This document shows positions 12,517 through 22,717 of a stretch of 45,169 bases of DNA, piece by piece; the first letter of the stretch is position 1; every line of letters starts with the position of its first letter. Below the pieces are notes generated by a model, which was given only the letters and a program-made list of their open reading frames with translations, was not told the DNA's origin and ran no database searches. The position numbers were made by a program, and so were the translations under genes. The DNA is taken from the NCBI GenBank assembly GCA_025360105.1, contig JANYCT010000025.1, positions 1 to 45,169 of the forward strand, written 5' to 3'. This stretch comes from Actinomycetes bacterium. GTDB lineage: Bacteria > Actinomycetota > Acidimicrobiia > Acidimicrobiales > Ilumatobacteraceae.

Positions 12517-13803
12517 ATGAACAGAACTCGGCGAGTGATGATCGTGGTGCTGATGTGCATCACCGTGGCTGTACTGCTGGGTTGGCCCGTCCGATTCGTT
12601 GGCGCCGCCGCCCCGCGCCAGGCCCCCGGACGCGTCGACCCGGCAGTCGCCACCATCCCGTCAGGGTGCGTGTCGCATCTACCCCTCGACGGTGGTGCGG
12701 ATTTCGCCGATGACTATCACTGTGCGGGAATTGCCCTGAACTATCACGTCAAAGGAACCGCCCACTCGCCGTTTCCGATCTGGGCCGGGCAATGGTTGTT
12801 CGTGGACGATCAGGGTGCGTTTCGTCGAGGTTCGTGCACGTTCAATCGAGGGATTCATCCGACTGTCGATTCCCCTGCAGTACCAGTGAACCAAGCACTT
12901 CCGAACGATCCTGGCGGCGGCAGAGCCGCGTATCTCACGTGGCGATACGGCAACACCTCGAACGATCTCACGGCTGCTGCATTGTGGGCCGTTTTTCACT
13001 ACTACGCCCAGGATGCGGCCGGCTCGAATCGTGCCACCGATCCCAACTCCGCGCTCGTGCCGTCGCTCGACGTTGTCGCCGCTGCGTCGGGGCGGACAGA
13101 CGTCGCCGCCACTGCTGTTGCTCTGGATTCAGAGGCGCAGCGTTTCTCGGCAGGCTTCACCTTGGACGTGGAGCTTGCCGAGAACGGTCACGGTGAAGCG
13201 CACGTGATGTCCGGCTCCACGCCGGTGGATCGCGTGGCCGTCACCATCACGGTTGCGTTGGTGCCGGGCTCGCCGACTTCGCTCGAGGTCACCACCGACG
13301 CAAGCGGCGCCGCAGCGTTCTCCGTCACGGGGATCACTGCCGACTCAGGTGCAGAGACGGTGTCGGTCACCGCCGTCATCGATGCTCCGGCGCAGGCTCA
13401 GGTGTATCAGGGTGCACCAGCCGATCGGGACGCGTCCGCGCAAACGCTGATCACCTCGGGTGGTACGACGCGATTGACCGCCACCGCGAACGCGGTCGTG
13501 TCGCCACCCCGCTCCACCATCCCAGCGACGACAACCACCACGAGCATCCCACCGACGACGACCACGACTGCGCCCTCAACGACGACAACCACACCAACAA
13601 CGACGACAGAAGCGGAGACATCCACCACATCGATCACGTTGCCGCCAACGACGGAGCCGCCCACCACGCCTCCCACGGCTCAGGTGGAACCGCCGCTACC
13701 GGTCACCGGCGCAGCTTCCGATGGAGTTGCCTACTGGGCCACGGCAATGCTCGTGGCCGGCGTAGGAGTGGTCGGTGCGGTCCGCCGCCGGCTCGCCGGG
13801 TGA
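12517..13803 (+). CDS. LPxTG-type surface protein
   Basis: A 428-residue exported protein. The start MNRTRRVMIVVLMC with a hydrophobic run to about residue 30 is a signal peptide; I chose the ATG at 12517 over one 14 codons upstream because the signal peptide then sits at the N terminus. The middle has a Thioester/Ig-like look (CVSHLPLDGGADF, later VDRVAVTITVALV) without a recognised enzyme motif. A Thr/Pro-rich spacer spans about 340-400 and is followed by LPVTG, a membrane segment and RRR, a standard sortase signal. The product should be covalently fixed to the cell wall. Function is unknown. No sortase gene is in the window. It converges on another surface-protein gene. Confidence 0.75.
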   Translation: MNRTRRVMIVVLMCITVAVLLGWPVRFVGAAAPRQAPGRVDPAVATIPSGCVSHLPLDGGADFADDYHCAGIALNYHVKGTAHSPFPIWAGQWLFVDDQGAFRRGSCTFNRGIHPTVDSPAVPVNQALPNDPGGGRAAYLTWRYGNTSNDLTAAALWAVFHYYAQDAAGSNRATDPNSALVPSLDVVAAASGRTDVAATAVALDSEAQRFSAGFTLDVELAENGHGEAHVMSGSTPVDRVAVTITVALVPGSPTSLEVTTDASGAAAFSVTGITADSGAETVSVTAVIDAPAQAQVYQGAPADRDASAQTLITSGGTTRLTATANAVVSPPRSTIPATTTTTSIPPTTTTTAPSTTTTTPTTTTEAETSTTSITLPPTTEPPTTPPTAQVEPPLPVTGAASDGVAYWATAMLVAGVGVVGAVRRRLAG

Positions 13804-13891: not shown

Positions 13892-15025
13892 TCAGGGTGG
13901 CGAGACTGTGCCGAGGCTGATGTCGTTGAGGATCCCGCCGGACTCGATGCCTGCGGTGCAGACCACGGTCGACGGGCTGCCGACGGAGACCGAGCCGCAC
14001 GTGGCGACTCCGCTGTCGAGCACCGTGTCGAAGTTGCCGGTGATCGTGAACTGATCGCCCGGATACACCTGCCCACCGGCCTGTGTGTTGTTGAAGATGG
14101 TGCCCTTACCCGGCGTTCCATCAGTGCTCGAGTCGGTGAGATCGGTGATGACCGGCTCGACACAGGTGTGTCCCTGTCCCGCTGCGCAGAACGCAGTCAT
14201 CTCCAACAGCGGCATGGGCTTTGCCACGATGATGTCGGTATCCGAGTTGATCGTGCAGCTGAAGGTGTTGTCGAGATTGTCGACGCAGCTGGCGCCGCCA
14301 TCATCGACCATCACGAGATCGGAGCTGCCAGCGATCTTGATGACCGTGCCGGGGGGGACGTCGCCGGTTGCGGTCGGCCCGGTGAAACCGCCATCCACGT
14401 AACCGCTCGGCTTCGTCAAGAAGAAATCGACACACGTGTATTTGTTCGGACTCGACGACGTGTCACACGAAACGGTGAAGTGCGCCGATGTTCCGATCTG
14501 CACGCGGTTCGGCCCGCCGCCACCAGCGGTGCACGTAACGCTCGAAGGATCGCCCACGGTTACGGCGCCGCACGTTGCGTTCTCGGCTTCCACGACCACG
14601 TTGAAGTCGCCGACGATGGTAAAGGTGTCACCAGCGTGAACGGTGCCGTCCGCTTCGCTCTTGCTCGCTGTGACCGTGGCATGCTGCACGCTGACCAAAA
14701 GCGGATCTGCGCAACCCGCACTCTTGTCCTCTCCGCAGAATACGAACAACGACAGTTCGGGCGTCGTCGTAGTGGTTGTCGCGGCAATGGTCGTTGTCGG
14801 CATCGGCACGTTCGAGGCATCACATGCTGGAGCGGCATCGGCTCGCTGATTGGTAGTGAATGCGCCGAGTGTGATGACGCACAGAACAAGAACCGCGAGC
14901 ACACCATGGACGCGATGCCCTCGCCTCGAGGCGATAACGGCGAGTACGCCGAAGGCGACAAGAGCGGCGGCAGAGGCGAGCAGCACCCAGCTGCCTCCGC
15001 CCGTTGTAGGTAGCTGACAATCCAT
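13892..15025 (-). CDS. Exported protein with an LPTTG-like sorting signal at its N terminus
   Basis: A 377-residue protein of unknown function. The ATG at 15025 is preceded by GAGAGAAGA and is the best start. Right at the start it reads MDCQLPTTGGGSW, then a hydrophobic segment and ASRRGHR, which looks exactly like a C-terminal sortase signal but is placed at the N terminus. A second hydrophobic segment (VHGVLAVLVLCVITLGAF) follows and ends ADAAPA, a signal-peptidase-like site. The rest, outside the cell, has a Thr run and then three similar beta-rich blocks, each with a GDxFTI(V/T)G(D/N)F motif and paired cysteines (CGAVTVG.., CGSVSVG..). Function is not known. It converges on the LPVTG gene with a terminator between. 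Confidence 0.7.
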   Translation of the reverse strand: MDCQLPTTGGGSWVLLASAAALVAFGVLAVIASRRGHRVHGVLAVLVLCVITLGAFTTNQRADAAPACDASNVPMPTTTIAATTTTTTPELSLFVFCGEDKSAGCADPLLVSVQHATVTASKSEADGTVHAGDTFTIVGDFNVVVEAENATCGAVTVGDPSSVTCTAGGGGPNRVQIGTSAHFTVSCDTSSSPNKYTCVDFFLTKPSGYVDGGFTGPTATGDVPPGTVIKIAGSSDLVMVDDGGASCVDNLDNTFSCTINSDTDIIVAKPMPLLEMTAFCAAGQGHTCVEPVITDLTDSSTDGTPGKGTIFNNTQAGGQVYPGDQFTITGNFDTVLDSGVATCGSVSVGSPSTVVCTAGIESGGILNDISLGTVSPP

Positions 15026-15045
15026 GGGTCTTCTCTCTCGTGTGT

Positions 15046-15169: not shown

Positions 15170-16177
15170 GTGACCCCCGTGGAGGCATTGGAAAGAGTTG
15201 TGCATTGCCTCGATCGCGCGCACGACAGTGGGTTCAAGAACAAGGCGTTCGTGCGGGCCATCGAGGTTGCCCGCGAGACATCGGCCGACGAGCTCGCCGA
15301 TCGTGCGGCCACGAACACGCTCACGAAGCTCGACGGCATCGGTGACAGTTCAGCGAAGGTGATCACCCAAGCGCTGGCGGGCGAGACGGCATATCTGGAC
15401 GCGCTCGAGCAGCGCACGCAGATTCCCATCTCGCCCGCGGGCGCGCGGTATCGGGCGGCACTGCGTGGCGATTGTCATCTGCACTCGCGTTGGAGCGACG
15501 GTGGCGCAACCATCGAGGCCATGGCGTGCACCGCCCGCTCGTTGGGACACGACTACATGGTGCTCACCGATCACAGCGGGCGCCTCACCATTGCCCATGG
15601 CCTGAACCGTGAGCGGCTGCTCGAACAACGTGCCGACGTTCGTGAGCTCAACAATCGCCTCGACCCGTTTCGCATTCTCAACGGCATCGAAGTGGACATC
15701 CTCGAAGATGGCTCGCTCGACCTCGATGACGAGTTGCTCGGCGAACTCGACGTGGTGGTCGCCAGCGTGCACAGCAAGTTGCGCATGGGCCGCGAGCAGA
15801 TGACGAAGCGAATGGTGGCAGCAGTCTGCTCGCCACACGTGGACATCCTCGGTCACTGCACCGGTCGGCTGATCGGCAAACGACCCGAATCGGCCTTCGA
15901 TGTCGACGCTGTATTCACAGCGTGCGCCGACAACGGCACTGCGGTCGAGCTGAACTGCCGGCCCGAACGGCTCGACCCGCCTCGGGCCATGCTCGATCAG
16001 GCGATCGAACTCGGTTGCTACTTCTCGATCAGTTCCGATGCGCATGCCACCGGCCAGTTGGAATGGCAGCCGTTCGGCTGCGACCGGGCCGCGGAGCGCG
16101 GCGTGCCCATCGAGCGGATCATCAACACGTGGTCGGTCGATGAATTGCTGGCGTGGACTCGGTCATCAAACCGGTGA
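15170..16177 (+). CDS. PHP-domain phosphoesterase with helix-hairpin-helix
   Basis: A 335-residue protein built like the C-terminal half of bacterial DNA polymerase X without the polymerase. A helix-hairpin-helix DNA-binding element is seen around 45-65 (LDGIGDSSAKVITQAL). The PHP metal site follows: GDCHLHSRWSDGG near 100, VLTDHSG near 125, GIEVDI near 178, SVHSK near 204, HVDILGHC near 223 and SSDAH near 286. These are the metal-binding His/Asp/Glu residues of a trinuclear-metal phosphoesterase. GTG start at 15170. It probably acts on DNA 3' ends or a phosphate ester; the substrate is not known. Confidence 0.9.
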   Translation: MTPVEALERVVHCLDRAHDSGFKNKAFVRAIEVARETSADELADRAATNTLTKLDGIGDSSAKVITQALAGETAYLDALEQRTQIPISPAGARYRAALRGDCHLHSRWSDGGATIEAMACTARSLGHDYMVLTDHSGRLTIAHGLNRERLLEQRADVRELNNRLDPFRILNGIEVDILEDGSLDLDDELLGELDVVVASVHSKLRMGREQMTKRMVAAVCSPHVDILGHCTGRLIGKRPESAFDVDAVFTACADNGTAVELNCRPERLDPPRAMLDQAIELGCYFSISSDAHATGQLEWQPFGCDRAAERGVPIERIINTWSVDELLAWTRSSNR

Positions 16178-22198: not shown

Positions 22199-22717
22199 AT
22201 GAAGCGCCTCGGCCCCATTCTGGTCATCTTGTTCGGTGCAGTTCTCGCGTTCGGCGGTCTGTCCAGCAGTCCCGTCTCCGTGGGCGCAGGGCCGCCCACG
22301 TGCTCCCCCAATGTGAATCCGGGCGTCGTCATCGCGGTAGAGGCCACTCTTCCTCCCTGCGTCCCATGCAGCAACCTTCTGACCGGCCTCGGTGCGACTG
22401 TCGACTCAATTCCTTGTGATCCATGCCTGCGACCCGCCGGTGCCAACATTGTTGTCCAGCCGGATCCGTGCGTGCCTCCGTGCGATTCGATTCCTTTCTT
22501 TAACGGTACCCAGGTGCCATGTGAGACCACGACCACAATCGCCGCAACCACCACCGTTGCACCCACGACGACCGAGTTCAGTGGATCTGGGGCAAATCTT
22601 CCAGCCACCGGCTCCAGGGGTATCAGCGTCACCCTCGTGATAGGCGTTGCACTGATGACCCTGGGTGTCGTTTTGCTCCTGGTTCGCCGGCGCTCGCCAT
22701 CGGCACCGATCAGCTGA
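22199..22717 (+). CDS. Short cysteine-rich LPATG surface protein
   Basis: A 172-residue exported protein. A signal peptide spans 1-30 (LGPILVILFGAVLAFGG). The mature part is dominated by Pro-Cys pairs (PPCVPC, PCDPC, DPCVPPC), ten cysteines in all, then a Thr-rich spacer, LPATG, a hydrophobic segment and RRR. It should be attached to the cell wall by a sortase. The ATG at 22199 was taken; a GTG one codon upstream is equally possible. The PC-repeat part may bind metal or form disulfides. I do not recognise the family. Confidence 0.7.
   Translation: MKRLGPILVILFGAVLAFGGLSSSPVSVGAGPPTCSPNVNPGVVIAVEATLPPCVPCSNLLTGLGATVDSIPCDPCLRPAGANIVVQPDPCVPPCDSIPFFNGTQVPCETTTTIAATTTVAPTTTEFSGSGANLPATGSRGISVTLVIGVALMTLGVVLLLVRRRSPSAPIS

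Follow-up and report, generated by a model that had tools for sequence, protein, structure and literature searches.

The closest described counterparts of the gene studied here are the M26 IgA1 proteases of streptococci and Gemella and the proteins ZmpB, ZmpC and ZmpD, which carry an LPXTG motif at the N terminus, ahead of the ectodomain. According to the accessible parts of the papers, this location was called atypical in the IgA1 proteases (PMC6722419), is also found in ZmpB, ZmpC and ZmpD (PMC7939560) and was reported from S. suis (PMC2705793); cleavage of the IgA1 protease was placed 56 residues downstream of the LPXTG (PMC9637739), and the mature IgA1 enzymes are described as attached covalently to the surface by sortase A (PMC7695701). 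We analysed a 45,169-nucleotide stretch of DNA from an actinobacterium of the Ilumatobacteraceae (contig JANYCT010000025.1, the window), in which a minus-strand gene at 13,892–15,025 encodes a protein with LPTTG at its N terminus. We found that the first ~68 residues of this protein form a module, framed by two Cys, that recurs in at least 34 proteins. In the IgA1/Zmp proteins a single protease family carries the N-terminal LPXTG, whereas here unrelated ectodomains do. Their G5 and M26 domains gave no Pfam match in the window protein or in the further members scanned, and a two-Cys frame goes unmentioned in the accessible text of the published descriptions, a difference drawn from description and not from sequence comparison.

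The window protein begins with MDCQLPTTGGGSWVLLASAAALVAFGVLAVIASRRGHRVHGVLAVLVLCVITLGAFTTNQRADAAPAC (minus strand, 15025→13892). Its LPTTG motif is followed by a hydrophobic helix, a basic loop (RRG), a second helix, A-D-A (in ADAAPAC), a Cys, a Thr-rich linker and a Cys-rich beta ectodomain, with 15 Cys in total. The open reading frame (ORF), its coordinates and the N-terminal LPTTG-helix-RRG-helix-ADAAPA order are as described in an earlier, sequence-only reading of the window. With the C-terminal LPXTG anchor (TIGR01167/PF00746), the protein shares the LPxTG, the hydrophobic helix and the basic end (residues 5–36). It differs in that the motif lies at residues 5–9 of 377, that a second helix follows the basic loop and that a Cys stands on either side, and the scores of module members are near or under the cut-offs of these models. 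In a search of the genome, TIGR01167 (LPXTG_anchor) matched 14921–15016 at 16.0 bits, the cut-off being 15.9; given the 70 residues by themselves, it scored 15.4 bits, just below that cut-off, and with the whole protein it was not listed. The PF00746 score of the module was 13.7 bits against a cut-off of 20. For the window protein, no Pfam family was found at 0.001, no relative in a PDB sequence search at an expectation value (E) ≤ 1 and no match in a plasmid search. The AlphaFold2 (AF2) model of the whole protein, made from an alignment of 2 sequences, was poor (mean predicted local distance difference test score, pLDDT, 49.9).

Translation includes the LPxTG part. Upstream of the ATG, the window's frame is open as far as a GTG at 15223. 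The same-genus relative (G007, locus L042; WLMZ01000095.1, a metagenome-assembled genome of Actinomycetota bacterium, isolate UFOp-RH-23may17-1058) has the same ATG start with an in-frame TGA four codons upstream, so its LPTTG part must be N-terminal; it is 79% identical over the aligned part, matches MDCQLPTTG exactly and is flanked by the same two genes. Among 21 modules of the commoner type, whose N-terminal part has 13 residues, codons 2–13 differ by 0.18, 0.15 and 0.54 per site at codon positions 1, 2 and 3, and the 30 bases upstream by 0.68, 0.63 and 0.64 per site in the same phases. Initiation could instead be sought downstream of the LPTTG, no earlier than the GTG at codon 14, as this GTG has a GGAGG seven bases ahead of it in the window and the relative has an ATG at that codon. 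However, the GGAGG is missing from the relative, and the stop upstream of the relative's start, together with a codon-position constraint that is present in the N-terminal part and absent from the upstream bases, rules out a wrong start codon, to which we give practically no probability. The start at 15025, which the sequence-only reading had wanted checked by alignment, is thereby confirmed: the relative begins at the same ATG and not behind the second hydrophobic segment, and codon positions 1 and 2 are constrained.

One N-terminal LPxTG followed by a helix could, on a rough estimate, arise by chance in a genome: from composition, 0.08–0.25 cases per genome would be expected, assuming 3,700 genes of which 10–30% have such a helix. 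TIGR01167 had 28 matches in the genome of the window (E ≤ 10), with [LIVM]PxTG present in 15 and absent from 13; among those 15, 14 are C-terminal, and the window protein is the only N-terminal one. What lifts the window case above chance is that homologous modules form a family.

A scan of genome contigs with the whole window protein found only the G007 relative. A two-sequence profile of the first 68 residues (A3) gave further N-terminal cases in the 221 genomes of the family, and a 17-row profile (A4) gave 31 matches at E ≤ 2.2e-10, 17 of them rows of the query profile itself, in 17 of the 221 genomes and 6 of the 27 genera (g1, g2, g8, g11, g14 and g22). The search for an N-terminal LPxTG-helix-RR pattern in related genomes, suggested in the sequence-only reading, was thus productive. 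Six of the 31 matches belong to one genome (G121), in which a seventh, weak match was left unread. The 14 non-query matches all have an N-terminal Cys, and 13 have LPxTG (the other has FPSTG); the outer Cys, beyond helix 2, is present in 12 of the 13 readable ones, being missing from the frame in G137, and the 14th runs off its contig. In the order (397 genomes), a match in a second family (G407, family f22; E 3.3e-6) was found and added to a 32-row profile (A5). A search of 110 f22 genomes, made with no motif filter, gave two more, G1275 (MLANCLPSTG...AEAAC) and G1192 (MVLATCLASTG...AAAAC), making three genomes with the module in that family. Samples of the class (345 genomes) and the phylum (396) held no further full-length N-terminal match except query rows and one weak, unread match in G121. 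The order, class and phylum searches scored the best 15–17 candidates of each genome, so that distant members may be missed; among the loci re-scored from them, G407 alone has a full-length N-terminal module. The others were C-terminal signals, multi-helix proteins, signal peptides and an internal case, in which LPVTG-helix-RKR-helix-ASA lies inside a 401-residue frame, 210 residues from its start and without the Cys pair (L184:4433-4606, G261:C325). The weak matches that were read within the family were C-terminal signals or unrelated proteins, save the module copies named here, and a match in G023 is a frame without the module in a stretch that holds other, likelier genes.

The module is portable, being reused on unrelated ectodomains. 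Behind it we found Lcl_C (L095 and L168 above the curated cut-off, L102 and L170 below), plastocyanin-like domains (L094 and L103, both above), DUF285 (L172, above), a squalene-cyclase-like domain (L251, below) and Gly-rich PGRS-like ectodomains (L099 below the cut-off, others judged by eye); there are also ectodomains without an assigned family. A Thr-rich linker (≥15 Thr in the next 60 residues) follows 23 of 32 modules, the window protein having 12 Thr; its placement mirrors that in the neighbouring protein at 12517–13803, whose Thr-rich stretch precedes a C-terminal signal. One locus (L101, G111:C262) has two module genes ~1.5 kb apart, one of just 71 residues, barely more than the module.

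Modules from other genera are roughly 22–36% identical to that of the window. In a 32-row alignment, C3, G9, G26 and C68 are invariant and L5, P6, T8 and R34 nearly so, and in a 16-row diversity alignment that includes the two new f22 rows, C3, T8, G9, G26 and C68 are invariant and L5 nearly so; rows were chosen with the outer Cys and cut two residues after it, and these figures lean upward because the Cys are part of the profiles and an LP.T filter had brought up many of the rows in the first place. Neither Pfam nor NCBIfam has a model for the module: among the 32 modules scanned, TIGR01167 matched 29 at E ≤ 1 (best 8.4e-4) and PF00746 matched 23 (best 0.002), and the few other low E-values (e.g. 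2.2e-4) are limited to individual members or belong to broad families of membrane proteins. A relic of the fusion of one gene, one of the explanations offered in the sequence-only reading, is rejected since the module recurs as a family on unrelated ectodomains with the Cys, the T-G, the mid-helix Gly and the outer Cys kept.

Two membrane helices around a positive loop are present in all 34 modules. Lys and Arg together average 2.9 in the loop, compared to 0.18 ahead of helix 1 and 0.15 behind helix 2, and the loop is the most positive of the three in 34/34; its position was set to the hydropathy minimum, a choice that selects for charged residues whether positive or negative, and its mean number of Asp plus Glu is 0.06. 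By the positive-inside rule, these charge counts put both module ends outside, with CxLPxTG outward. An N-out/C-out hairpin with the motif on the outer membrane face, as a sortase needs, is therefore a well-supported prediction, and the N-terminal double anchor that the sequence-only reading had considered agrees with the charge pattern. We inspected 32 of the 34 proteins, five of which are truncated by the end of a contig, for further helices behind the module; this gave five weak hydrophobic stretches with a mean hydropathy of 1.65–1.97, and no C-terminal sorting signal was seen in these proteins. An AxA-like site after helix 2 is found in the window protein, in the G007 relative, in copies of G015 and in f22.

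We also looked at the two Cys, which the sequence-only reading does not mention. The first stands two residues before the Leu of the motif in 31 of 32 modules; in the other one, G407, it immediately precedes the Leu. Among C-terminal LPxTG signals of the fetched loci, a Cys at this position was found in 4 of 74, all from genus g23, and a fifth g23 case (L045) was filtered out. The g23 signals (NCELPTTGGG in L073, NCNLPETGG in L075, SCNLPETGG in L186 and DCELPTTGGG in L045) share C-x-LPxTG with the module, those of G243 matching the window's module better than anything except the same-genus relative, but they are C-terminal and have no second helix. In two plastocyanin-like members, C7 and C66 are accompanied by a single further Cys, which belongs to the cupredoxin domain, and the only Cys of a 71-residue member are C7 and C63, so low-Cys members hold little beyond the pair and would offer no other partners. 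With the two Cys both expected on the outer side of the membrane, a disulfide is the natural explanation, and we lean slightly towards the two module Cys being joined by one. A Cys after a hydrophobic segment is also a feature of bacterial lipoproteins, whose lipobox has the consensus [LVI][ASTVI][GAS]C. The module as a rule has no lipobox, the residue before the outer Cys being mostly P, D, E, S, T, N or V; by eye, only G407 (VAAC) fits in the two alignments, and we rejected a lipoprotein.

Taken together, these features could be explained, if tentatively, by a portable N-terminal surface anchor in the first ~68 residues, which combines a hairpin, a sortase and a disulfide tether. The two helices would form the N-out/C-out hairpin, its positive loop being cytoplasmic, so that C-x-LPxTG would lie at the outer membrane face, oriented as in a C-terminal sorting signal. 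A sortase would cut between T and G and transfer the short, Cys-bearing N-terminal stub to the wall precursor; with the stub Cys disulfide-bonded to the Cys past helix 2, the ectodomain, on its often Thr-rich linker, would keep a covalent link to the wall. In modules that lack a signal peptidase site, the ectodomain would additionally be anchored by the hairpin, and an AxA cut, as may happen in the window protein, would leave the ectodomain free of the membrane. After a sortase cut without the disulfide, only a short stub would be left on the wall, whereas with it the stub would be a hook for the ectodomain. Cleavage of the module by a sortase is reasonably probable. That a disulfide tether to the wall is the purpose of the module is a tentative proposal, and we are a little more reserved still about the arrangement as a whole, in which a sortase would fix only a Cys stub of 6–10 residues, the protein would hang by a redox-releasable disulfide and the device would be portable on many ectodomains in an actinobacterial lineage.

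An arrangement like that of the IgA1/Zmp proteins, with a sortase acting on the N-terminal LPxTG, a cut behind helix 2, the ectodomain held otherwise or released, and a Cys pair that stabilises the hairpin or links subunits, seems unlikely to us but deserves consideration. The A-D-A of the window protein lies ~56 residues past LPTTG (residues 62–64 against 5–9), and in the accessible text on Zmp proteins an amino-terminal LPXTG is described, by which ZmpC is sorted (PMC7939560). This arrangement leaves unexplained why the Cys pair is kept at low identity on unrelated ectodomains and why 21 of 32 modules have no A.A site. The many copies without a signal peptidase site, in which the ectodomain would stay in the membrane anyway, would suit a plain two-helix anchor derived from a C-terminal signal that was moved to the front, its LPxTG no longer cut and its outer hairpin ends closed by the disulfide; the copy in G101:C85, which lost LPxTG and kept the hairpin, points the same way. 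We regard this plain anchor, too, as improbable, because the motif persists while the surrounding sequence diverges. The T-G is kept in five rows that were read without the LP.T filter (L176, L178, L181, L250 and L251), L182 having lost the motif. Sortases use an N-terminal Gly as nucleophile, and the cut could also expose an outward N-terminal Gly on the hairpin that takes another LPxT protein. An invariant G comes after the T, frequently with another G behind it, but the residue next to the invariant G varies (G, S, L, A, Q, T) and the Cys pair has no role in such an acceptor, which we hold to be very unlikely.

The wall tether has several observations against it. An A.A site occurs within the 14 residues before the outer Cys in 11 of 32 modules only, and in genus g22 it is lacking from these 14 residues in 16 of 20 rows. 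Conservation is somewhat inflated by the Cys-bearing profiles and the LP.T filter, and no VKOR homologue was found in the window's genome. There are also exceptional copies: G101:C85 keeps the hairpin and the outer Cys without an N-terminal Cys or LPxTG, G015:C4 begins MNRQLPATG with no Cys ahead of the motif and ends 64 residues past it, G137:C32 has no outer Cys in frame, the motif of G131 is FPSTG, and the second copy in G015:C1 has LPISG and a more distant Cys. The sortases of the window's genome are nearest to the class E model, below its cut-off; class E prefers LAxTG, which is found in just two of the 34 modules. No sortase was seen in one of the module genomes (G107, 69% complete), and none was found at E ≤ 1e-5 in 37 neighbourhoods, some overlapping, of module genes and some other matches, with four sortases of the window's genome and four from relatives as queries. 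On the other side, the window's genome has four sortase-fold genes, one of which lacks the His and the Cys at their usual places, and a sortase is present in 16 of the 17 module genomes of the family compared to 156 of 221 overall (hypergeometric P 0.018, uncorrected for kinship and completeness).

Further observations concern single copies and sortases. The motif of G015:C34 is LAATG, an exception, and the module-led frames at L108 (G015:C4) and L173 (G137:C32) are shortened and possibly decaying. In G000:C24, an apparently dead sortase (L008:1168-2124, plus strand), with GRR for GHR and LVSA for LVTC (no Cys), lies near a C-terminal LPGTG protein (L028), and G000:C100 has a 567-residue protein (L007:1474-3174, minus strand) with a sortase domain at the C-terminal end after ~420 repeat-like residues.

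The features of the window are collected in Table 1. The C-terminal signals that the sequence-only reading had assigned to the two other surface proteins, at 12517–13803 and 22199–22717, are both present. The genes that flank the module gene are presumably ychF-like and PHP/polX-like, and between them the C-terminal-LPVTG neighbour was not seen in the G007 relative. Compared to the window protein, this relative (L042:5001-5891) has ~87 ectodomain residues (~94–180) missing and a longer Thr-rich linker.

Table 1. Coordinates of the N-terminal LPTTG gene, its parts and the other surface proteins in the window.
Feature	Position	Strand	Basis
N-terminal LPTTG surface-protein gene, 377 residues	13892..15025	-	open frame; same-start relative flanked by the same two genes
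Candidate ribosome-binding site, purine-rich GAGAGAGAAG ahead of ATG	15030..15039	-	sequence; letters differ in the same-genus relative
C3-x-LPTTG (residues 3–9), sorting motif and first conserved Cys	14999..15019	-	alignments; LPXTG_anchor match; outward by prediction
Membrane helix 1 (~residues 13–32), conserved mid-helix Gly26	14930..14989	-	hydropathy; low-confidence AF2 helix 11–34; G26 invariant
Positive loop SRRGHRVHG, cytoplasmic by the positive-inside rule	14903..14929	-	charge count, 34 modules
Membrane helix 2 (~residues 42–57)	14855..14902	-	hydropathy; low-confidence AF2 helix 38–62
A-D-A (residues 62–64), possible signal peptidase I site	14834..14842	-	sequence; kept in the same-genus relative
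Cys68, second conserved Cys, just beyond helix 2	14822..14824	-	every row of the 32-row and 16-row alignments
Thr-rich linker (residues 76–89)	14759..14800	-	sequence
Cys-rich beta ectodomain with internal repeats	13895..14758	-	comparison with the relative; low-confidence AF2 strands
Neighbouring surface protein, ordinary C-terminal LPVTG signal, outside the module	12517..13803	+	comparison
Second surface protein, ordinary C-terminal LPATG signal	22199..22717	+	comparison

We searched the literature for similar modules. No report of such a module in actinobacteria was found in full-text searches (titles and abstract starts), and no paper pairing 'sortase' with 'Acidimicrobiia' came up in a full-text search. 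Thirteen LPXTG ORFs were listed for Ilumatobacter, their position not being stated in the accessible text (PMC3910706), and in our judgement the 'N-terminal LPxTG' in the accessible parts of PMC4572922, PMC5152845, PMC5902611 and PMC7663024 means ordinary sorting motifs. Hence, the 'novel arrangement' proposed in the sequence-only reading holds in part: an N-terminal LPxTG itself is known from the streptococcal IgA1/Zmp proteases, and what appears to be new is the Cys pair and the reuse on unrelated ectodomains, neither of which turned up in the literature searched.

Searches for sorting signals usually assume a C-terminal position, so that proteins of this kind are readily overlooked or classed as unusual membrane proteins. 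The reuse of the module on plastocyanin-like, Lcl_C, DUF285 and Gly-rich ectodomains means that the N-terminal LPxTG of the streptococcal proteases is not an oddity of a single family. The Cys pair would offer a concrete reason for having a sortase motif at the front end, and it suggests that attachment to the surface may be redox-sensitive and that the module may be a new two-anchor display tag.
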